A stretch of DNA of 35,266 nt from Minisyncoccota bacterium (GTDB lineage: Bacteria > Patescibacteriota > Minisyncoccia > Phycocordibacterales > UBA9973): assembly GCA_018061865.1 (NCBI GenBank), contig JAGOTH010000007.1, positions 1-35,266 on the forward strand, written 5' to 3'. Made by a program: the position numbers and the translations under genes. Below, piece by piece: positions 11,796 to 33,967 of this stretch. The notes below the pieces were generated by a model, which had not been told where the DNA came from, did no database searches, and was given only the letters and a program-made list of their open reading frames with translations. Positions within the stretch are counted from its first letter, which is position 1. Each line of letters starts with the position of its first letter.

Positions 11796-11818
11796 GCTGT
11801 TTTTTTATTTTTTGCTTT
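11780..11818. terminator. Short hairpin terminator between convergent genes
   Basis: AGCAGC and GCTGTT arms (about 11783-11800, one G-T pair) around CTCTTGA, followed by a T-rich run. A-rich on the left, so it may also serve pgk on the minus strand. Confidence 0.5.
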
Positions 11819-12947
11819 TTATAACTGCATCAATTCCCGGCAAACTTCCTTTCGATAAATAATCGAGCGTTGCTCCTCCACCACTTGAAACAAATATATT
11901 TTCCTTTTTGTATTTCAGAGCAAGAACGGCAGTGTCTCCCCCTCCTACAATTGCTGAAACTTTATTTTTTGAAATTGCTTTTAGGATTTTTTCACTTCCA
12001 TCCACAAACCCTTCTTCATAAATTCCGGTTGGGCCATTCCACAAAACAAATTTCGATTCTTTTATTAAATCAGCGATTCTGGTAGCTGTTTCTTTTCCAA
12101 TGTCTACAATCTTCTCTCCCTTCTCTACTTCTTCAATTCTACAAATCCTTTTTCCGCCACTTAGAGTTACAATCAAGTCAAAAGGTAGAAGAATTTTCTT
12201 ATTTTTCAGAAGTGGTTTTATTTTTGGATCCTTTTCAAAAAGAGACTGTCCCACCTCAAGTCCGGCTTCATAAAAAAAGCTATTAGCAAGAGCTCCTGTG
12301 ATAACAATGTTGTCTGCTTTTTTTAGAAATTTATTAATAAGAGGAAGTTTGGTAGAGAACTTAGCTCCGCCAAAAATAACAAGAGAACCCTTTGGCATAT
12401 TTATCGCCTCTTCCAACTTCTCTATTTCAAGGGACATCCTTATGCCGAAAAATGAAGGCAGAATCTTGGGCAAACCAACAATTGAAGAGTGTTTTCTGTG
12501 AGAAACAGAGAAAGCTTCGTTAACAAAGAAACTTGCGTCTTTTGCCAACTCCTTCGTGAACCGTGCCTCGTTTTCAACTTCTCCTTTAAATTTTCTTATA
12601 TTTTCAAGCAAAATAATATCTCCTGCTTTCATTCCTTTTTTCTTTTCTTCTAGTTCCGCGAGTGTCTCGGCAAAAAGAACTTTTCCAATCCTCCTTCTCA
12701 AATAATTAAGAACCGGTAGTAAGCTCTTCTTCCCGTCCTCTCCTAAATGACTCAGGATTACTACTTTTGCTCCTTTCTTAGATAAAGAGTAGATAGTCGG
12801 CAAAGCAACATCAATTCTATAAGAGCTGACAATTTTATTATTTTCAATTGGGACATTGAAATCGGCTCGGAGAAGAACAAACTTACCACGAATATTTCCA
12901 GTTTTAGCTAAACTTTTTTTGTAGATATCTCCTTTGCGATTTGGCAT
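11805..12947 (-). CDS. pgk: Phosphoglycerate kinase
   Basis: 380 residues, slightly short for the family. RADFNVP near residue 28-34 binds 3-phosphoglycerate, followed by SHLGE (usually SHLGR), an ENIRKFKGE motif, GGAKFSTKLPL, NGPTGIYEEGF for nucleotide binding, and GGGDTA then SSGGGATLDYLS near the C-terminus. It makes ATP from 1,3-bisphosphoglycerate in glycolysis. The SHLGE change replaces a usually conserved Arg and is worth noting, but the remaining motifs are intact. The start lies 40 bases inside tpi, an unusually long overlap; no later in-frame ATG would keep the conserved N-terminus. Co-transcribed with tpi. Confidence 0.93.
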   Translation of the reverse strand: MPNRKGDIYKKSLAKTGNIRGKFVLLRADFNVPIENNKIVSSYRIDVALPTIYSLSKKGAKVVILSHLGEDGKKSLLPVLNYLRRRIGKVLFAETLAELEEKKKGMKAGDIILLENIRKFKGEVENEARFTKELAKDASFFVNEAFSVSHRKHSSIVGLPKILPSFFGIRMSLEIEKLEEAINMPKGSLVIFGGAKFSTKLPLINKFLKKADNIVITGALANSFFYEAGLEVGQSLFEKDPKIKPLLKNKKILLPFDLIVTLSGGKRICRIEEVEKGEKIVDIGKETATRIADLIKESKFVLWNGPTGIYEEGFVDGSEKILKAISKNKVSAIVGGGDTAVLALKYKKENIFVSSGGGATLDYLSKGSLPGIDAVIKSKK

Positions 12948-13678
12948 ATTTTTGTAAACTGCTTAGCGTTTAAACTGGCTCTCCCTATCAAAAGTCCACC
13001 TGAGCCTCTAACCGAAAGAAATTCTGCTGAATTTTTTTCATCCACTGAACCTCCATATAAAATCTGAACCTTACCTTTTCCTTTTGTTAAGTCTGAAACA
13101 ACTTTTTGAATAAAAATAATCATTTCTTCAAACTCATGAGAAGTTGCACTTCGTGTTGCGCCTTTCCCAATTGCCCAAACAGGCTCATACGCAATAAAGC
13201 TACCTTTTCCAAAACTTGAATTAATTTTTATAACAGATTCTATTTGTTCTCTAACAAAAGAGAAATAGGAAGAATCGTCTTGTCTTTCTTTTTCTCCAAC
13301 GCACAAAATAGGGATAATTTTTTCACTTAAAATATTAGATACTTTTTCTGCCACAATCTCATTTGTATCGCCCCTTTTTCTAACTTCAGAGTGTCCAACA
13401 ATTGCATATTTTATACCAAAAGAAGAAAAAGCCTTCACGGGTATTTCTCCTGTATTTGATCCATCTTTTGTTAATGGAAAATCTTGAAGTGAAAGAGAGA
13501 ATTTCTTTGTTCCTTTCCTTTTGGAAAGATCAGGTATAAAAATAGAGGGCGGAGCTATAACCACTTCAAATTTATTATTTTTTGGAATCTCCTTATCAAT
13601 AGATGAAGCTAGAAGGCTGGCTTCTTTTAGGTTTTTTGGATTTTGTTTCCAATTTCCTACAATAAATAATTTCTGCAT
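12908..13678 (-). CDS. tpiA: Triosephosphate isomerase
   Basis: 256 residues from the ATG at 13678. GNWKQN near the start holds the substrate-binding Asn and catalytic Lys, IVGHSEVRKRGD the electrophilic His (the usual GHSERR here reads GHSEVR), AYEPVWAIGKG the catalytic Glu, and ILYGGSV the phosphate-binding turn. It interconverts dihydroxyacetone phosphate and glyceraldehyde 3-phosphate. The open frame extends to 13696, but TGCTATAAT ends seven bases before the 13678 ATG, so the upstream codons are promoter sequence. It lies directly after the pilus operon but has its own promoter, and forms a glycolytic operon with pgk. Confidence 0.93.
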   Translation of the reverse strand: MQKLFIVGNWKQNPKNLKEASLLASSIDKEIPKNNKFEVVIAPPSIFIPDLSKRKGTKKFSLSLQDFPLTKDGSNTGEIPVKAFSSFGIKYAIVGHSEVRKRGDTNEIVAEKVSNILSEKIIPILCVGEKERQDDSSYFSFVREQIESVIKINSSFGKGSFIAYEPVWAIGKGATRSATSHEFEEMIIFIQKVVSDLTKGKGKVQILYGGSVDEKNSAEFLSVRGSGGLLIGRASLNAKQFTKICQIAKEISTKKV

Positions 13679-13684
13679 TTGGAA

Positions 13685-13693
13685 ATTATAGCA
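13685..13693 (-). promoter_or_regulatory. Extended -10 promoter of tpi-pgk (leaderless)
   Basis: Minus-strand TGCTATAAT; TATAAT ends at 13685, seven bases before the A of the ATG at 13678. The same TGCTATAAT string stands before the gene starting at 26560. Confidence 0.6.
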
Positions 13694-13700
13694 CAAACGA

Positions 13701-18823: not shown

Positions 18824-20578
18824 TTATTCTGAAACAACACGCAGAACTTCTTCTGTGGTAGTAAGTCCGAGCACTGCCTGATAAATTCCATCTTCAAGCA
18901 TTGTCATCATTCCTTCTTTCTTTGCCTGTTCTTCTATTTCGTCTCCAGATGCTCCCTTCAAAACCAATTCTTTTATAGCAGGTGACATAACCATCACTTC
19001 GTGAATTCCAACTCGGCCACTATATCCACTTTCGCAATCTACACTTTTCTTCTCTCTGTAAAAAGGAATCTCTTCCCATTTGGCATCTTCTGAAAGAACC
19101 TTTTCTTCTTTAAGAAGTTTCAACATTCTATCTAGATCAATTATTTTTTCTAAAGCAGAAAGTTCAGCTTTATTTAAAAAATATTTTTCTTTTGTATTAC
19201 AAAGTTTTCGTACAAGTCTCTGCGCAATAACAGTCTTCACAGTAGAAACGATAAGAAATGGTTCAACTCCCATATCTATCATTCTTGGAACCACTCCGGC
19301 GGCTGAGTTCGTGTGTATAGTTGATAGAACCAAGTGTCCCGTAAGGGACGCATTAACACCCAGAGCGGCTGTTTCTCCGTCTCGAATCTCTCCCACCATG
19401 ATAATATCTGGGTCTTGTCTAAGAAGAGTTCGAAGTCCATTCGCAAAAGTAAGCCCAATCTCACTTTTTACTTGAGTTTGGTTAACTCTTGGCATTTGAT
19501 ACTCAATCGGATCTTCAACAGTAGAAATATTCACTTCCGGAGTATTCAAAATATCTAACATCGTATAAAGAGTTGTTGTTTTTCCGCTTCCGGTTGGACC
19601 TGACGCGAGTAACATTCCTGTTTTTTGTTTCATTCCTTCGTGAATTCTCTCAAGTGCTAACCCGTGGAATCCGAGACCTTCGAGAGTAAATCCCCTACTG
19701 CTTTCTTTCAAAATACGAATAACAACTTTTTCTCCAAAATAAACAGGTAGGGTTGAGACACGAAAAGAAACCCTCTGATCATCTTGGGAAATTTTAAATC
19801 TTCCATCCTGAGGCAATCTCTTTTCGTCCAATTTTAAACCAGAAAGAACCTTTATTCTTGCAGTAATTGCTGGAGCAGAATCTTTTGGCAAAATCATCGC
19901 ATCTCGCAAAATTCCATCAATTCTGTATCGAACAAAAAGTTCTGTCTCTCCGGGTTCGATGTGAATGTCAGAAGCGTTTTGTAAAATAGCGTGAGAGACC
20001 AAAGTATCAACAATCTGAACAACCGGAAGGTCTTCGGCTAGCGCCTTAAGCTCTTTTTCTGTTTGAGCAGTATCTCCTCCAGCCTCACTTATTGTTTTAA
20101 GTGTTGCGGTTTCCTTTTGAATTATCGAGTCGAACTCAGCCTTCAGACTTCTTCTGTATTGAGCAAGAGCTGTTTTTATAGACTCTCCATCGGTTAGTCT
20201 TGGTAAAATCTTGAGCTCAACTTTCTTCTTAACAGAATCAATAACTGGCAAGTCATCGAAATCAAGCATTGCCACTTCAAGGCCCTTATCGGTTTTATTG
20301 TAAGCAATGATATTGTGGTTTCTGGCAATTGGCTCTGGAATGAGAGACAAGACATCCGAACTGATCTTTTGCCCAATTAAAGAAACAAAAGGAATACCTA
20401 AAACATAAGCTTCCATTCTTTTCAAATCGGAGTCTTTAAGTTTTCCTTCTGAAACCAAAATATCTCCGAGGCTTCTACCCGAAGAGGAGGCTTCTTTTAC
20501 TGCACTGTTTAAATCCGTTTTAGAAATTAATCCAGAGTCAGAAATAAATTTTTCTAGTTGCTTTAAAGCAATCTGCAT
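18824..20578 (-). CDS. pilB: Type IV pilus extension ATPase PilB
   Basis: 584 residues. N-terminal MshEN-type domain (about 1-140), linker helix, then the secretion ATPase domain with Walker A GPTGSGKTTTLY, Asp box, VEDPIEYQ and Walker B (RQDPDIIMVGEIRD), His box (TGHLVLSTIHTNSA). It drives pilus assembly. The usual four-cysteine zinc site is reduced to two (RKLCNTKEKY and SVDCESGYSGR), so zinc binding is probably lost. No retraction ATPase PilT, PilD peptidase or PilMNO is seen in this window. First gene of the pilus operon, with TATAAT ending seven bases before the ATG. Confidence 0.93.
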   Translation of the reverse strand: MQIALKQLEKFISDSGLISKTDLNSAVKEASSSGRSLGDILVSEGKLKDSDLKRMEAYVLGIPFVSLIGQKISSDVLSLIPEPIARNHNIIAYNKTDKGLEVAMLDFDDLPVIDSVKKKVELKILPRLTDGESIKTALAQYRRSLKAEFDSIIQKETATLKTISEAGGDTAQTEKELKALAEDLPVVQIVDTLVSHAILQNASDIHIEPGETELFVRYRIDGILRDAMILPKDSAPAITARIKVLSGLKLDEKRLPQDGRFKISQDDQRVSFRVSTLPVYFGEKVVIRILKESSRGFTLEGLGFHGLALERIHEGMKQKTGMLLASGPTGSGKTTTLYTMLDILNTPEVNISTVEDPIEYQMPRVNQTQVKSEIGLTFANGLRTLLRQDPDIIMVGEIRDGETAALGVNASLTGHLVLSTIHTNSAAGVVPRMIDMGVEPFLIVSTVKTVIAQRLVRKLCNTKEKYFLNKAELSALEKIIDLDRMLKLLKEEKVLSEDAKWEEIPFYREKKSVDCESGYSGRVGIHEVMVMSPAIKELVLKGASGDEIEEQAKKEGMMTMLEDGIYQAVLGLTTTEEVLRVVSE

Positions 20579-20638: not shown

Positions 20639-22309
20639 TTAGATCAAAGAAATCTGTTTTTTTATTCTTCTCTTTGTCTCTTCTACGCCGATAGTCTCGA
20701 TTATTAAAAATAAGTCTGGAGTATTGGCTCTCAGTGTCAGCGATTTTCTTAAAATCATAGCAAAATCACCAAATTGTCCTTTAAAATTGTCTGGATTTTC
20801 TTTAAAGCTCTTAGCGTCACGAGCAAAACCGTATTTTGAAGCAATTTCTCTCATTTCCAAAATCCAACCGTCTTTACCCAAGTCCACATTTGCAATTTGA
20901 TCCATATTTTCTGTAAGAATATTCTTCACTAAATCTTTTTTATCCTCAAAAATTTCAGAACTACCTAAATTATCAACTTCTTCGTCAAATAAATCTGAGA
21001 AAAAGTACTTAGTCATTTCAAAGACATCATCAAAGCAGGCGAAGTCTTTTCTGGATTTTTCTCCACCTCTTTCAATACTAAATATTCTTTTAGAATAATT
21101 AGTATCTCCATTGAAAATGGTTGCCACTTCTTTGTTGTATTTTTCTGCCCATTCTATAAATAACCCAAAAAACTTGTCTGTATCATATCGAGCCAAAACC
21201 TCTTTACCAACAAATTCCAACTTTTTCATATCAAAAAGCGCTCCACTCTTAGACATTTTGCTTATTTCAAAAGGAAATTCTTTAAGGTCTTTGTCTTTAT
21301 TCTCCTTTCTCCATGGTTCAAAAGATGAATTCGCAATATTAAGTAGATACTCAGTTATTGCTTCAACTGAAAATCCTTTTTGCATATAAAATTCCACACT
21401 AGCCTCCGGATCTTTTCTTTTAGAGAGCTTTCTCTTTCCTTCACCATCCATCTTCATAATTGGAGAAATATGCGCATAACGAGGAGTATCAAATTCCATA
21501 AAAGAAAACAATTCTAAGTGCGTTGGTAGAGAAGATATCCATTCGTCAGAGCGAATCACATCAGTTACTCTCATAAATCTATCATCCATAACATGCGCGA
21601 AGTGATAAGTAGGCAAACCATTTCTCTTTAAAATAATTTCATCTCTATCATTCTCGGTTACTTTTATCATTCCTCGGAGCATGTCTTTAAATTCTGATTG
21701 GTTCTCGTGAGAACCTTTTGAGCGCATTCGAATTACAAATTCTTTCCCCGACTTTATTTTTTCAGATATTTCTTCCTCAGAAAGATTTCTACAAGTTCTC
21801 CACTGCCCCCAATATCCAGTTCTTACTTTTGACTCTTCTTGAATTTTTCTTTTAGCATCTAATTCATCCTCTGTACAAAAGCAAGGGTATGCCAACCCTT
21901 TAGCCAAAAGGTCTCTAACCCCAGTGGCATATATTTCTTTTCTGTCACTTTGTCTATACGGTCCATAATCACCCATGTCTTTACCTGAAGACAAAACTCC
22001 TTCATCGTAATTTATTTTAAAATGAGAAAGGCCTTCAACTATAAGATCTTCAGCTCCTTCTTGTTTTCTTTTATCGTCAGTATCTTCAATTCTTAAAATA
22101 AACACTCCATTAGACTGGTGTGCCATCCTTTCTGACACCAACCCTGTCAAAATACCTCCAATATGCAAAAATCCAGTAGGGCTTGGAGCAAAACGAGTGA
22201 CTTTTGACCCTTCTTTTAGACCTCTTGGGGGAAATTTTGTCTCCAATTCAGACACAGAAAGCCCCATATCTGGGACCAGAGAATCAATTAGTTCCTTTGA
22301 ATAGTTCAT
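20639..22309 (-). CDS. gltX: Glutamyl-tRNA synthetase
   Basis: 556 residues from the ATG at 22309. FAPSPTGFLHIGG (HIGH motif about 49-52), IEDTDDKR, the zinc-type segment CFCTEDELD followed by WRTCR, and KRKLSKRKD (KMSKS-like) identify a class I glutamyl-tRNA synthetase; the C-terminal anticodon-binding region follows. It charges tRNA-Glu, and in bacteria without GlnRS also tRNA-Gln. A GTG at 22327 extends the frame, but a TGATAAAGT element at 22326-22318 covers it and predicts a start near 22311, so I prefer the ATG. Divergent from the T9SS-tagged gene. Confidence 0.94.
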   Translation of the reverse strand: MNYSKELIDSLVPDMGLSVSELETKFPPRGLKEGSKVTRFAPSPTGFLHIGGILTGLVSERMAHQSNGVFILRIEDTDDKRKQEGAEDLIVEGLSHFKINYDEGVLSSGKDMGDYGPYRQSDRKEIYATGVRDLLAKGLAYPCFCTEDELDAKRKIQEESKVRTGYWGQWRTCRNLSEEEISEKIKSGKEFVIRMRSKGSHENQSEFKDMLRGMIKVTENDRDEIILKRNGLPTYHFAHVMDDRFMRVTDVIRSDEWISSLPTHLELFSFMEFDTPRYAHISPIMKMDGEGKRKLSKRKDPEASVEFYMQKGFSVEAITEYLLNIANSSFEPWRKENKDKDLKEFPFEISKMSKSGALFDMKKLEFVGKEVLARYDTDKFFGLFIEWAEKYNKEVATIFNGDTNYSKRIFSIERGGEKSRKDFACFDDVFEMTKYFFSDLFDEEVDNLGSSEIFEDKKDLVKNILTENMDQIANVDLGKDGWILEMREIASKYGFARDAKSFKENPDNFKGQFGDFAMILRKSLTLRANTPDLFLIIETIGVEETKRRIKKQISLI

Positions 22310-22317
22310 TATATATG

Positions 22318-22326
22318 ACTTTATCA
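22318..22326 (-). promoter_or_regulatory. Extended -10 promoter of gltX
   Basis: Minus-strand TGATAAAGT, predicted start about two bases before the ATG at 22309, thus nearly leaderless. Confidence 0.35.
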
Positions 22327-22397
22327 CGAGAAAAGCCTTAAAACTAGGGTTTTTCTTATAAACAGCTTATACACACTCGAGCTCGACTACCCTTGAC

Positions 22398-22441: not shown

Positions 22442-23758
22442 ATGAAAAATTTAATCGCAATCCTGTTGACTGCCTTGTTGGGAGGCGCAACAACAACTCT
22501 GTTTTCACAAATTTCATGGGAAGATTTTGACGCTGTTGTAGTAAACGAACAGTGGCAATGTCTTGATTTTTCCTCTAATGAGGATGGGTCGCAAACAAAA
22601 GCCTACTTAGCTGAAACACCCTACGGGACATTCCTGTACGGTAAATTTTCTGAAATAAATGGTAACCAGTATAACTCGGTTGCTAAATTTTCAGACCAAA
22701 AACTTGAATCAGCGCCTTTTGTAAATGAAGAATTTAACCAAATTTTCCAGATAGAAGTAAATGGTGACGATGTAATATTCGTTACTAACATTGATATATT
22801 CAGTTGGAATGGGGAGGGAAATCTGGTTCCGTGGGGAATCGATATCGATGTGTCTGATCAAGACAACCTTGAAGACATAATATATTCAAAGATAGTTTCA
22901 GGAAAATTGGTAATTTCTGGCAACATTTCCTACCTTAATGGAATGTCTGCATGGGGAGCAATTATAGACCTAAGTTCTCATGTTATCGAAAAGATAATTT
23001 TCAAAGATGGATACACTGGAGGAGATTTCGATAAATTATTTGACACTGTTTGGTTTAGTTACAACTATACAGAACTTGGAGCCGGTCCAGATTGGAAATG
23101 CTTATTAGGATATGATCTTGGCACAGGACAAGAAATAGAACCAAATACACCCTTCTTGATTAACCTCGTAGGTGATGTTGAATACTTTAATGAAAAAATC
23201 TACGGAGTATTTACTGACCCGTTAGATTTAATAACAAAACTTTACACTTTCGATGGTGTGAATTGGAACAAGATATCCGGTGGAGGACATTTGTTTGTTA
23301 TTGAAGATAACCTTTATATATCTCCAGGTCCATTCAGACTAAAAGAAGACGGGATTTCATGGGAAGTAATAGTTGATTCAGATTCAACCTTGATGTTCGA
23401 GAGAACATTTTGGATAAATGGATTCTGGTACGGCGTTGCAAACCCAGGAATGTCTCCTCTGAAAGCAGAGTGGGGTGATGATTTTGTAGAAAATATCTGT
23501 GCCAATAAATTCATAGCGAAACTCGGTGAGCCCGAAGAAGAGGTTTCAGTAACTGAAAATATTTCTGAAAATTTTGAACTTTATATATCAGGTGAAAACT
23601 TGGTTATAAATTCAAAGCAAAACTTTTTACTCCAGATTTACAATATCTCTGGACAAAAGATTTTGGAAAAAGAAATTTTTCCAGGAAACGAAACCTTTCA
23701 CTTCGATCAACCAGCCGGAATCTATCTGGCAAAAAATAAAAGATTCGTTAAGCTATAA
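22442..23758 (+). CDS. Secreted protein with Bacteroidota-type T9SS C-terminal sorting domain
   Basis: 438 residues. Signal peptide 1-23 with the LFSQ end typical of Bacteroidota. The central part (30-355) is a run of beta strands with repeated Trp and Gly (FDGVNWNKISGGGH, KEDGISWEVIVDS), like a beta-propeller. The last 70 residues match type A T9SS sorting domains: LYISGENLVINSK, then LQIYNISGQKILEKEI, and GIYLAKNKRFVKL at the end. The tag directs proteins to the type IX secretion system, which CPR bacteria are not known to have. Likely acquired from a Bacteroidota partner or host. It is preceded by a standard sigma-70 promoter and followed by a strong terminator. Confidence 0.82.
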   Translation: MKNLIAILLTALLGGATTTLFSQISWEDFDAVVVNEQWQCLDFSSNEDGSQTKAYLAETPYGTFLYGKFSEINGNQYNSVAKFSDQKLESAPFVNEEFNQIFQIEVNGDDVIFVTNIDIFSWNGEGNLVPWGIDIDVSDQDNLEDIIYSKIVSGKLVISGNISYLNGMSAWGAIIDLSSHVIEKIIFKDGYTGGDFDKLFDTVWFSYNYTELGAGPDWKCLLGYDLGTGQEIEPNTPFLINLVGDVEYFNEKIYGVFTDPLDLITKLYTFDGVNWNKISGGGHLFVIEDNLYISPGPFRLKEDGISWEVIVDSDSTLMFERTFWINGFWYGVANPGMSPLKAEWGDDFVENICANKFIAKLGEPEEEVSVTENISENFELYISGENLVINSKQNFLLQIYNISGQKILEKEIFPGNETFHFDQPAGIYLAKNKRFVKL

Positions 23759-23782: not shown

Positions 23783-23822
23783 ACGAAAAAACCCCCGCAA
23801 CTCGCAGGGGGTTTTCTTTTTT
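23783..23822. terminator. Bidirectional terminator between convergent genes
   Basis: CCCCC (23792-23796) and GGGGG (23807-23811) with an inner GC/GC pair, flanked by A-run and T-run, between the T9SS-tagged gene and the minus-strand 23831 gene. Confidence 0.85.
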
Positions 23823-23830
23823 ACTATTTT

Positions 23831-24736
23831 TTAACAAGAAGCTCCGGCTGGTCGAGCTGGTATGGTTATAGGAGAATAAAGAGCTTCTGCAGTATTAGTT
23901 TCATCACCTGAAGAACCGGTTAGTCTTACTTGTGTTACATAAGTTGAGCCCACTTTCTTAGGAAAACTGATTGTGATGGGACTGCCAGAACCGTAGTAAG
24001 TCCAGTCAGCGGCATATCCACTATATCTCCATTCATAAAAAACAGAACCATCTGCCCCTGTGGCACTTGCGGTGTAAGTATAGCTCTTTGTACAACTATC
24101 TTCAGAAATGAGACCGCTTTGAGTATAAGATACAGACAAAGGAATATCTTCAACTTCCACATCTGGCACGTCTATATCCTTACATAATACAATTTTTCCG
24201 TTTGTGTCAGCACAAAGCATTGTTGGATACCAATCATCTGACTGTCCTTTTAAGGTTATATCAAAACCAGGTCCTGCATTAACGAGGGCAGTAGAGAGAA
24301 TATCTCCAGAAACATTCAGTTCTTCTGGACCAGTAGGGGTAACGAAAGCTGTTGTGTCATAACCGATGTTAACTTTTGCAGAAGGTTCTACAATGTTTAT
24401 AACTCCAGCTTGGCCGTCTTTACCAAACTTTGAAGAACCTACAAATTGACTTGTTTTCCAAACCTGCAAAATATCTGTCCAGGTAGTTCCGTTGTCAGTA
24501 ACTGGAGTAGTAATTTCTAGTTGGACATTTGGATTTGCAGTAGTTCCCAAAGACAGCCATCCTTCTTTTGCTTGGTTGCTACTGCTCACGTTGATCGGAG
24601 CTGGGGCGTTGTTTGCCTCACTCGGCGCTCCAGCTGGAGGTGCCCACGCAGCTTGAACATAAGAAATCCCAGCGACAAGCACAAGTCCAATCGCGATTCC
24701 TTTTATTGTGTGTATAAATGTCTTGTTTATTTTCAT
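23831..24736 (-). CDS. Secreted surface protein of CPR type
   Basis: 301 residues. Signal peptide (to about residue 30, IGLVLVAGISYVQA before AWAPP). The segment WAPPAGAPSEANNAPAPINVSS followed by KEGWLSLG is a pattern seen at the N-terminus of many Parcubacteria extracellular proteins. Beta-rich middle (about 60-190) with one CADTNGKIVLC pair, then an Ig-like domain (about 200-300) with SVSYTQSGLISEDSC and a final Cys. It is probably attached to the cell surface or to pili. It is the third gene of a minus-strand group of surface proteins (26560, 26213, 24736), separated from the second by 52 bases. Function unknown. Confidence 0.72.
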   Translation of the reverse strand: MKINKTFIHTIKGIAIGLVLVAGISYVQAAWAPPAGAPSEANNAPAPINVSSSNQAKEGWLSLGTTANPNVQLEITTPVTDNGTTWTDILQVWKTSQFVGSSKFGKDGQAGVINIVEPSAKVNIGYDTTAFVTPTGPEELNVSGDILSTALVNAGPGFDITLKGQSDDWYPTMLCADTNGKIVLCKDIDVPDVEVEDIPLSVSYTQSGLISEDSCTKSYTYTASATGADGSVFYEWRYSGYAADWTYYGSGSPITISFPKKVGSTYVTQVRLTGSSGDETNTAEALYSPITIPARPAGASC

Positions 24737-24788: not shown

Positions 24789-26213
24789 TTAATTTTCTCG
24801 GTATTCAAACTTTGGAACTCCACCCGGGCAATCTTCTAAGTCTGTACATCTTACATTGGCACAACTATCTTGGACTAAAACCGTTGCCGTATCTGAAATT
24901 GTTCCTCCTCCCTCGGCGTCTGCAACATCACAAGAAATCTTGTAACTTGCTGTGCTTGCTGGATTTACATCATCGCTTCCGCTTGTATCTCCATCGGTAT
25001 CAAAGTCAGCTTGATAATCTGCTGAACAATAAGTTGTGTAAGAAGAAGTCCAAGAAATTGATTCTGGGCCCTCTCCTGTTTCAATACAAGCTCCGATAAG
25101 GTTTACAAATGGACCACTACAATCATTAGAAACAGTAACGGTGGCCTCGTCTTCTACTGTTCCCCCTCCAGCTCCCGCAGAGACTGAACAGGATACAGAA
25201 TAAGTAGAAGTGTCTGTAGGGTTTACATCGTCAGCCCCTTCAGTTGCTCCTGCTGTTGAGAATCCGAGTCCGCTTCCAGTACAAGAGACTGTGTCTCCAG
25301 AATCCCAAGATAGGGTTCCTGTCTCTCCCGGAGCTATACATATGTCTGTTAGGTTAACAAAAGCGTCTCCTTCTGTTGCCCCAGTTATTGGAACACTTGT
25401 TGAAGCAATATCTGCCATATCCCAAGTCTCACCAGCTTTTATACAAGCAATTGAGTATGAGACAGCACTGAAGGCTGGTCCGGGAACCGTTACTCCGCTC
25501 TGAGCTCCATTTGGTGGAGTAAGCATTGGAATACTCATCCAAGAAGATATATCTCCTGTTGTAGTATTACTTCCAGTGTTTGGCTTACATTGAATATAAC
25601 CACTTCCCACTGGTGCAACCCAGTTTAGAGAAACTGTCACAGGTGTTCCTGTGTAAGAAACAGAAGCAGGCGTTGCATAAAGAGTTAATCCTGTTGCTTC
25701 TGATGGCGGGAAAGTAACTCCAGAAAAATCTACCCAACCAACAACATCATCTCCCCATCCATATCCACTAGCGTCTCCTGTTGGAGAAACAGTCACTCCA
25801 TAAGTAGCCCCTGTCATAGAAAGAAGTCCATCCCATCCGTCTTCTGTCGCTCCGTCAAAAGCTCCTCCTGCAAGAAAACTAGCAAATCCAGTTACAACAC
25901 TAGTTCCAGGTGCCATTCCAGGCAAAATACTTACCCCAGAAAAATTCACCCAACCAACATTCGGCGACCATCCATACCCAGAAAGAGCTCCTCCTTCAGA
26001 AGCAGTTACTCCATAGTTATTTGTTCCACAAACATTTCCACCTCCACCGGCTGATGGTTGTGACGCGCAATTCATAAAGATCCATCCAATATCTGGTGAC
26101 CAAGCAGTTCCTGTCACTGATCCCCCCGCTCCTTTTACTGGTAGAACAATAGAAGCTATAACCAAAAAAGCTGATAAAAATAAGGCTAATTTAAGTTTTT
26201 TAGTAATTTGCAT
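24789..26213 (-). CDS. Secreted protein with GxxWSPxxGW repeats and Cys-rich Ig-like domains
   Basis: 474 residues. Signal peptide 1-29 (ending VLPVKGA). Three repeats of the form GTAWSPDIGWIFMN, GYGWSPNVGWVNFSG and GYGWGDDVVGWVDFSG in residues about 35-180 are a feature of Parcubacteria surface proteins. After it come Ig-like or fibronectin-like domains, each with a paired cysteine (TDICIAPGETGTLSWDSGD, then IGACIETGEGPESISWTSS) and a repeated DDVNPxxTxxYxxSC strand. The final 17 residues have CxxxxxC (RCTDLEDC). Probably a cell-surface or envelope component. Two bases separate it from the upstream gene, so they are co-transcribed. Confidence 0.75.
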   Translation of the reverse strand: MQITKKLKLALFLSAFLVIASIVLPVKGAGGSVTGTAWSPDIGWIFMNCASQPSAGGGGNVCGTNNYGVTASEGGALSGYGWSPNVGWVNFSGVSILPGMAPGTSVVTGFASFLAGGAFDGATEDGWDGLLSMTGATYGVTVSPTGDASGYGWGDDVVGWVDFSGVTFPPSEATGLTLYATPASVSYTGTPVTVSLNWVAPVGSGYIQCKPNTGSNTTTGDISSWMSIPMLTPPNGAQSGVTVPGPAFSAVSYSIACIKAGETWDMADIASTSVPITGATEGDAFVNLTDICIAPGETGTLSWDSGDTVSCTGSGLGFSTAGATEGADDVNPTDTSTYSVSCSVSAGAGGGTVEDEATVTVSNDCSGPFVNLIGACIETGEGPESISWTSSYTTYCSADYQADFDTDGDTSGSDDVNPASTASYKISCDVADAEGGGTISDTATVLVQDSCANVRCTDLEDCPGGVPKFEYREN

Positions 26214-26941: not shown

Positions 26942-28243
26942 ATGTTAGACCTAAAAGCGCTTAAATTAGCAGCTGTACAGTTAGAGGAGGAACGAAAGGT
27001 TCCACAAGACAAGATAATAGAAGCAATCGAGTTCTCTCTCGCTGCCGCCTACAAAAAAGAATATGGAAAGAGAGACCAAATCGTTCGCTGTAAATTCAAC
27101 TTTGAAACTGGCGACACAGAATTCTACCAAGTAAAAATCGTAGTTGATGATTCAACTGTTCGATTCGTTGAAGAAGGAGAAGAAGACGTTCCAGAAGAAG
27201 GAGATGAACGAACTAGATACAATTCAGAAAAACATATCATTCTAGAAGACGCCAGAAGAATAAAAGCTGACGCGGAACTTGATAGTGAAATTTCTTTCCC
27301 ACTTGAAACAAAAGAAGATTTCGGAAGAATTGCAGCCCAAACAGCAAAACAAGTAATCATCCAGAAGATTCGTGAGGCAGAAAGAACATCTATTGTTGAC
27401 GAATACGGAGCAAAAGAAGGAGAAATTGTTTCTGGATATGTTTCAAAAACTGACCGTGGAGCAATGTTCGTTGACCTACACCGAGCAACTGGAATCATGC
27501 CCTTTGAAGAGCAGATCCAAGGTGAACACTGGAAAAGAGGAGACAGAATAAAAGCTTATCTATATGAAGTAGATGAAACTCCAAGAGGTATCGTTTTGAG
27601 ACTCTCTCGAACCCATCCTCGTTTTATAGAAATGCTATTTGCCGTTGAAGCACCCGAAATCGCCAGCGGAGTTGTTGTAATAAAAGCTATTGCCCGAGAA
27701 CCGGGATCCCGATCAAAGATCGCAGTTTTCTCAAACGACGAACGAGTTGATCCAGTTGGATCTTGTGTTGGTGGAAGAGGAGTTAGAGTTACAACAATAA
27801 TGAATGAATTGTCCGGAGAAAAAATAGATATTATTCCATGGGCTGAAGATCCAGCAACTTTCATTTCAAACTCACTCTCTCCTGCAAAAGTTCTAGATGT
27901 TGTAATTGATGCTGATGGCAGAACGGCAACTATTGAAGTGGCCGATGACCAGCTATCTCTTGCAATCGGAAAAGGCGGACAAAATGTTCGTCTCGCTGCC
28001 AAACTAACTGGCTGGAGAATCGACATCAAGGGAGTTAAAGGAGAAGAATTCGCTTCAAGTGACGGAGAAGAAGTTCGACTCGAAGATGAAGCTGGATTTA
28101 TAAAACTATCTGATCTAAAAAACCTAACAACAGACTCTGAAGAATCTATTGAGGAAGAAATCGTAGAAGAAACAGAAAACAAAGAAGAAGAAAAGGAAGA
28201 AGCGATCGAAAATGAAGAAGTTAAAAAGACAGACGAAGAATAA
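26942..28243 (+). CDS. nusA: Transcription termination/antitermination factor NusA
   Basis: 433 residues. N-terminal RNA-polymerase-binding domain (about 1-125, with VPQDKIIEAIEFSLAAAYKKEYG), S1 domain (about 135-205, GEIVSGYVSKTDRGAMFVDL), two KH domains (about 210-365, with VGSCVGGRGVRV and LAIGKGGQNVRLA). The last 60 residues are an acidic Glu-rich tail in place of the AR repeats found in E. coli NusA. NusA binds RNA polymerase and nascent RNA and modulates pausing and termination. It heads a group of housekeeping genes with ppa and tig. Confidence 0.95.
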   Translation: MLDLKALKLAAVQLEEERKVPQDKIIEAIEFSLAAAYKKEYGKRDQIVRCKFNFETGDTEFYQVKIVVDDSTVRFVEEGEEDVPEEGDERTRYNSEKHIILEDARRIKADAELDSEISFPLETKEDFGRIAAQTAKQVIIQKIREAERTSIVDEYGAKEGEIVSGYVSKTDRGAMFVDLHRATGIMPFEEQIQGEHWKRGDRIKAYLYEVDETPRGIVLRLSRTHPRFIEMLFAVEAPEIASGVVVIKAIAREPGSRSKIAVFSNDERVDPVGSCVGGRGVRVTTIMNELSGEKIDIIPWAEDPATFISNSLSPAKVLDVVIDADGRTATIEVADDQLSLAIGKGGQNVRLAAKLTGWRIDIKGVKGEEFASSDGEEVRLEDEAGFIKLSDLKNLTTDSEESIEEEIVEETENKEEEKEEAIENEEVKKTDEE

Positions 28244-33433: not shown

Positions 33434-33967
33434 TTATTTTTTGATGAGGGTGGTTTCCGTTGTCCCCTCACCGAGGTTTACATCTTGTATCCACACCACA
33501 TCTCCGGCTTTCACCTTCGGTGCATCGTTGCCGTTTTCATCATCTTCATACAACTGACTTATGTAAATATCACTCGCATGTTTGTCTTCACTTCTAATCA
33601 ATGCGGTAGTATGTATGCCTATTTTAGTTTCTTTACCAGAATCATCCGAGTCATAAACAGGGATATTTTCTATGTAAAGAACTTTATAAGGAATATTTTT
33701 GTCGGTACCAGCACCGTTAAACACCTTTAAACCGATGGAATGTAATTCCTGGTCAGGACAATTATTTTTTTCTTTTTCTGCTTTAAGATTTTGAATTTCC
33801 AAGCGCAGGCTTGCGATTTCGTTGTCCAGAATTTCAATGTTGCTCTTATAAGTGGAGCACGCATCTGTTGGTTGTCTTTCACGGGAGCTTCCTCCGCATG
33901 AAGTAAGCCCCATGATGATCAAAAATAAAGAAAAAATGGTCGTCAGAAATAATGTTTTGTTTTTCAT
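33434..33967 (-). CDS. Lipoprotein of probable Bacteroidota origin
   Basis: 177 residues. A signal peptide with lipobox GLTSC, followed by GGSS, the usual Bacteroidota lipoprotein start. A coiled-coil segment (about 45-68, NIEILDNEIASLRLEIQNLKAEKEK) is flanked by two cysteines. The C-terminal domain is beta-rich (IGLKVFNGAGTDKNIPYKVLYIENIP), ending in KAGDVVWIQDVNLGEG. No named family. It has a consensus promoter (TTGACA, 17 bases, TGC-TATACT) and precedes the large membrane protein on the same strand, but with its own terminator between. Confidence 0.75.
   Translation of the reverse strand: MKNKTLFLTTIFSLFLIIMGLTSCGGSSRERQPTDACSTYKSNIEILDNEIASLRLEIQNLKAEKEKNNCPDQELHSIGLKVFNGAGTDKNIPYKVLYIENIPVYDSDDSGKETKIGIHTTALIRSEDKHASDIYISQLYEDDENGNDAPKVKAGDVVWIQDVNLGEGTTETTLIKK

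Follow-up and report, generated by a model that had tools for sequence, protein, structure and literature searches.

The tail gene and its surroundings

The window, i.e., the whole 35,266-nucleotide stretch analyzed here (contig C4; the genome as a whole amounts to 614 kb, at 97.7% completeness and 0.28% contamination), holds at 22442–23758 (+) a real open reading frame for a 438-aa secreted protein, in which a signal peptide is followed by a fast-evolving orphan body and a C-terminal T9SS type A tail. As read from the sequence, the signal peptide covers residues 1–22 (22442–22507, +; MKNLIAILLTALLGGATTTLFS) and ends ...TTTLFS directly before a Gln at +1, whose codon lies at 22508–22510, as in the Bacteroidetes Q-rule. 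The tail domain occupies residues 370–438 (23549–23755, +), with seven predicted β-strands and a match to TIGR04183 at 23600–23734.

A G+C-rich hairpin between A and T runs (23792–23825), a probable (bidirectional) terminator, separates the tail gene from the convergent gene. The latter (23831–24736, −) encodes a secreted 301-aa protein that has a signal peptide, with neither a tail nor Gln at +1. The following gene (24789–26213, −) encodes a secreted 474-aa surface protein with GYGWSPNVGWVNFSG-like repeat units, whose relatives in G001 and G069 are likewise encoded close to tail genes. This region of surface-protein genes is bordered on one side by pgk-tpiA (11805–13696, −) and on the other by nusA (26942–28243, +), for a window arrangement of pgk-tpiA ... 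tail gene ... nusA. A PilB-like type II/IV secretion ATPase (18824–20578, −) belongs to a pilus gene cluster. The divergent upstream neighbor (20639–22327, −) is a glutamyl-tRNA synthetase-like gene (gltX), named from sequence resemblance alone. Its product is 44–46% identical to those of Clostridia and of G010, and ~33–40% identical to those of most family members over long matches; the window gltX thus looks like a replaced copy. The gltX matches in G002 and G051 read through one in-frame TAA. In the preliminary description, the promoter of the tail gene was held to be of CPR type; however, no sigma-70-like promoter pair was found upstream of the gene on the + strand. Upstream AGG-type motifs provided no useful separation of tail genes from native genes.

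Identification of the tail domain

Curated profiles taken alone yield borderline evidence for the tail. Against TIGR04183 (the NCBIfam T9SS type A sorting domain; cut-off, 23 bits), residues 387–431 score 20.4 bits with hmmscan, i.e., under the cut-off, and the protein reaches 23.3 bits, above it, in a six-frame search of the genome; Pfam profile PF18962 does not match the protein. The motif D/E-like end (PAGIYLAKNKRFVKL) is intact, and the opening stretch of the type A domain, motif A (P-N-P), is missing or degenerate. An HMM of CPR tails, built with the 438-aa protein left out, scores this protein at 24.1 bits, versus a best of 8.8 bits for 2000 shuffled versions of its C-terminus, and ranks it third among 404 ORFs of its own genome, behind two other tail proteins. 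These stronger proteins, from contigs C12 (429 aa, ...KIVIN) and C8 (414 aa, ...FSFVKL), account for TIGR04183 scores of 50.5 and 28.4 bits, both over the cut-off.

Folded alone from a single sequence with AF2, the last 69 residues (370–438) are predicted to form a seven-stranded β-sandwich (mean pLDDT 71; core 80–87); in a prediction of the complete protein, pLDDT is 37 outside the tail. Foldseek returned the RgpB, 5hfs, and RemA C-terminal domains (CTDs) at ranks 4–8 with weak E values (0.07–0.13), while DUF3244 and other Ig-like folds were placed above T9SS CTDs. As the Ig-like fold is common, the seven-strand match is weakly specific, and the fold alone is not diagnostic. The call is supported by the CPR-tail HMM relative to shuffled sequences, the predicted fold, and the two clearer tail proteins in the genome, which together confirm a T9SS type A-like tail on the 438-aa protein. 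The earlier pairing of a Bacteroidota-like signal peptide with a type A tail in a CPR genome showing no T9SS was thus borne out. The body is without homologues in plasmids or the PDB, and among 148 related genomes it has a single weak 24% stretch. Codon usage of the gene lies at the 57th percentile of the genome's own genes.

This architecture resembles that of T9SS type A cargo such as RgpB, RemA, and AmyB, in which a Sec signal peptide (often with Gln at +1) and a variable body precede an Ig-like domain of ~70 aa and seven strands, located at the very C-terminus, with a motif D/E-like end containing lysines. Those proteins, however, are encoded by Bacteroidota, whereas the CPR tail proteins come from a cell with no outer membrane (OM) and no detectable T9SS. 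The tail is also akin to the C-terminal sorting tags known from monoderm bacteria, LPXTG among them, which likewise mark Sec-exported proteins of a one-membrane cell; unlike these, it has no LPXTG-like motif plus hydrophobic helix, the tag being a folded β-sandwich according to the model.

A reduced genome with no outer membrane

Absence of ribosomal protein uL30 is a CPR hallmark, and uL30 was matched in none of 100 relatives (own genome included) versus 13 of 14 control genomes; the genome is reduced and of CPR type. An Omp85/BamA profile had no match in 148 relatives, with seven control genomes matched. The preliminary description had pointed out that the tail needs a type IX system, which CPR cells are not known to carry, and had proposed a check for porU, porV, or sprA-like genes. 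Neither SprA nor Peptidase C25/PorU was detected in the 148 genomes; the controls had no match to either, nor did a Persicobacter megaplasmid used as a control for C25. The firm argument against a T9SS in this genome is therefore the missing OM. With no Omp85-type OM and no T9SS marker, the 438-aa protein is not T9SS cargo in cis.

The M28 fold, that of the Bacteroidetes glutaminyl cyclase, is missing in this genome, and 84 of 90 relatives lack it as well. Peptidase M28 family members were found in the remaining six (G003, G018, G028, G043, G047, and G120), four of which fall in genus g19; a glutaminyl cyclase could be among them.

Distribution of tails across the family

The tail is no one-off. 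TIGR04183 tails are present in 43 of the 89 genomes of the GTDB family, representing 22 of 24 genera, versus 18 of ~374 sampled genomes elsewhere in the phylum, only 8 of which exceed the cut-off (Fisher p ~6e-22 for family versus rest of phylum, on nearly the same counts). Tails stop at the C-terminus or near it: of 110 tail matches extracted, 106 end no more than 16 aa from the end of the profile. Among 85 complete tail proteins, 78 have a predicted signal peptide. Among 82 family tails, 80 have G-x-Y in the motif D region, and 77 have a Lys within the last 13 residues (the motif E region). Some tail-bearing contigs are as long as 336, 325, 284, and 277 kb, the genomes themselves measuring ~0.6–0.9 Mb, which excludes contamination.

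Outside the family, G340, a distant member of the Patescibacteria, encodes four YPNPF-type tail proteins (L057, L078, L082, and L084) on contigs of 95–284 kb and is a second independent occurrence of tails. In G122, from family f35 of the same order, ten tail matches (L142–L144), several in tandem, lie on contigs of 15–33 kb that may be contamination.

Synteny of tail genes and selection on tails

In six genome pairs, a tail gene sits between the same neighbors, many of which are 80–97% identical, with the tail proteins themselves at 30–74% identity. One such pair, G002/G051, spans two genera, with more-diverged neighbors (22–88%). Certain loci also recur across genera: pgk-tpiA-tail in G001 and G140 (and near it in G038), such that the region holds tail genes in three genera; recA-tail-efp in G007 and G053, with tail-efp in G034; and nusA-tail in G016, G033, and G053. 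A search next to the tail genes brought up neither a CPR "reader" nor any recurrent partner gene; their recurrent neighbors are housekeeping genes and other surface-protein genes.

In four pairs or paralogue sets, identity was much higher in the tail than in the body, at 83 versus 32% (across two genera), 64 versus 29%, 59 versus 34%, and 66 versus 38%. Moreover, dN was lower than dS in the tails of five syntenic pairs (p 2.8e-7, 4.3e-4, 6.4e-4, 5.4e-5, and 1.1e-7); in the sixth, G040/G051, tail constraint was not significant (p 0.16). The tail was not better conserved than the body in two of six orthologous pairs (G057/G069 and G006/G061) and was less conserved in G011/G025. Tails are thus under purifying selection, and the bodies are mostly lineage-specific. 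Given the native codon usage, the shared loci, and the selection on tails, these genes are not recent arrivals; rather, the bodies turn over quickly while tail and locus persist.

Signal peptides, tail types, and tail dialects

Gln occupies the +1 position in 47 of 78 tail proteins versus 5 of 83 other proteins of the own genome with a called signal (Fisher p 3e-14), a contrast that is approximate given the simple caller used and the many membrane proteins among the 83. Gln at +1 is the Bacteroidetes Q-rule, which is absent from related phyla (PMC5837995). Type B tails make up about a quarter of those in Bacteroidota, with ~900 versus >3000 in 104 genomes (PMC10202324); at that rate, unbiased transfer would have brought ~19 into the 148 genomes, whereas one was found (p 9e-9), the expectation being weaker if the hosts are poor in type B. 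This sole type B CTD (L201:1185–2063, −; TIGR04131, 62 bits) is encoded in G001, on a 251-kb contig that also bears type A tails. What type A tails have in common is one generic shuttle, PorV.

Two dialects of tail were distinguished. Most tails are of the PNP kind, and YPNPFNP tails occur in several genomes of genus g16. The latter sequence is presumably Ignavibacteria/Chlorobi-style; the g16 tails match it and are likewise C-terminal, differing in that they sit in CPR. None of the 25 family genomes with at least two tails mixes the two dialects (permutation p <1e-4), and the same loci hold either dialect in different genomes. Such uniformity fits a match to a tail reader, but equally well tail genes gained several times from a single partner lineage or multiplied by duplication inside the genome.

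Possible functions of the tails

A life on other cells is generally assumed for CPR bacteria; those of this family are tiny and probably host-dependent. As the tail is constrained, it must do something. Our preferred reading, to which we assign a probability of roughly 40%, is that the tail works in trans, addressed to the tail-reading machinery (PorV/PorU) of a Bacteroidota partner. The tail proteins form a resident secreted-protein set of one CPR family, and their N-terminal signal and type A domain would descend from Bacteroidota-type proteins. Because the cell has no OM and shows no T9SS, and a signal peptide is present, export would be by Sec only, across a single membrane. At the partner, T9SS surface components, such as the PorV shuttle and the PorU sortase, would read the tail; the partner would thereby capture the CPR proteins or anchor them on its surface, or export them anew if they get into its periplasm. 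We prefer this reading as the simplest account of the tail, the Q-rule, the dialects, and the missing machinery together.

A more specific form of this proposal, which we put forward only tentatively, is that CPR epibionts hijack the host T9SS, with PorV/PorU linking tagged proteins to the host surface or with export from the host periplasm, and with the dialect tracking the host lineage. PorV/PorU are not known to capture an externally supplied CTD. In Bacteroidota, both proteins act at the cell surface: PorV keeps cargo there, and PorU cleaves the CTD and links the cargo to A-LPS (PMC5562754). Motifs D and E are required for T9SS secretion, and motifs B, D, and E have been modelled on extracellular loops of PorV (PMC10202324). 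Against reading by a partner, uniform dialects could also be imitated by genes that arrived several times from the same donor.

The alternative that survives best, albeit one we regard as less likely, is a CPR-internal surface module, in which a tail taken from Bacteroidota long ago now serves as a domain for folding, stability, or anchoring to the wall or S-layer and is read by a CPR component. The selection on tails and their retained C-terminal position require just some receptor, not a foreign one, and the tail genes do lie among CPR surface-protein genes; yet the lack of a recurrent partner gene beside them speaks against such a module. It would also leave unexplained why the Q-rule is retained with no glutaminyl cyclase fold and why one genus has the YPNPFNP dialect, and it offers no reason why about half of the family genomes manage without tails. 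Between the two options raised at the outset, reuse of the tail as a surface module and mimicry of host proteins, addressing to a host is somewhat ahead.

Passive horizontal transfer appears more doubtful again. Here, whole genes for secreted proteins would have come repeatedly from Bacteroidota neighbors or hosts, with a functionless tail riding along. Bacteroidota belong to the non-CPR lineages that most often donate genes to Patescibacteria (PMC12455944), and such transfer would account for the double Bacteroidota signature of tail and Q-rule, for the mostly lineage-specific bodies, and for the Bacteroidota-like lipoproteins described below. It would not, however, account for syntenic orthologues across species and genera, for native codon usage, or for the near absence of type B tails, and a functionless tail would be expected to decay or be lost first, rather than to be under purifying selection. 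The recent transfer from Bacteroidota envisaged in the preliminary description is disfavored by native codon usage, loci common to genera, and selected tails.

Finally, an artefact through mis-binning or mis-joining of Bacteroidota contigs is scarcely credible: all of the genomes are probably metagenome assemblies and some tail contigs of relatives are short, but nusA, pilus genes, and pgk-tpiA flank the tail gene on both sides in the window contig, tails lie in syntenic chromosomal loci across CPR genera, on contigs of up to 336 kb in genomes of 0.5–1.0 Mb, and pair after pair of independent assemblies has CPR orthologues of 80–97% identity as neighbors, which refutes the suspicion of misassembly.

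Relation to previous knowledge

CTD proteins have been described as restricted to Bacteroidota, tracking T9SS genes with few exceptions (review, PMC10202324). Selected, family-wide tails in bacteria with no OM break this rule. Our literature search, in which subscription papers were thinly covered, brought up no description of T9SS tails in CPR. Labels such as "T9SS type A sorting domain-containing" may already have been given to CPR proteins by automatic annotation, and single CPR tail matches are therefore not new; as far as we found, it is the family-wide, selected, and dialect-uniform pattern that is undescribed. Should a Bacteroidota partner indeed read the tails, then (i) the likely hosts of this CPR family would be named, its host being unreported as far as we found, (ii) a molecular handle would be gained on CPR action at the host surface, and (iii) the host lineage could be read from a genome by its tails.

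Other Bacteroidota-like secreted proteins

Further proteins of the same genome have a Bacteroidota-like appearance. A 219-aa protein on contig C14 (L047:5773–6429, −), with a Q-rule signal peptide and no Pfam match, reads like a Bacteroidota outer-membrane β-barrel, even though the genome lacks Omp85. Three Bacteroidota-looking lipoproteins (ACEKSES.., SCSKTEKK.., SCGGSS..) are encoded at L035:10214–10750, L049:17012–17386, and, in the window, 33437–33967; the borrowed secretome may thus be wider than the tail proteins.
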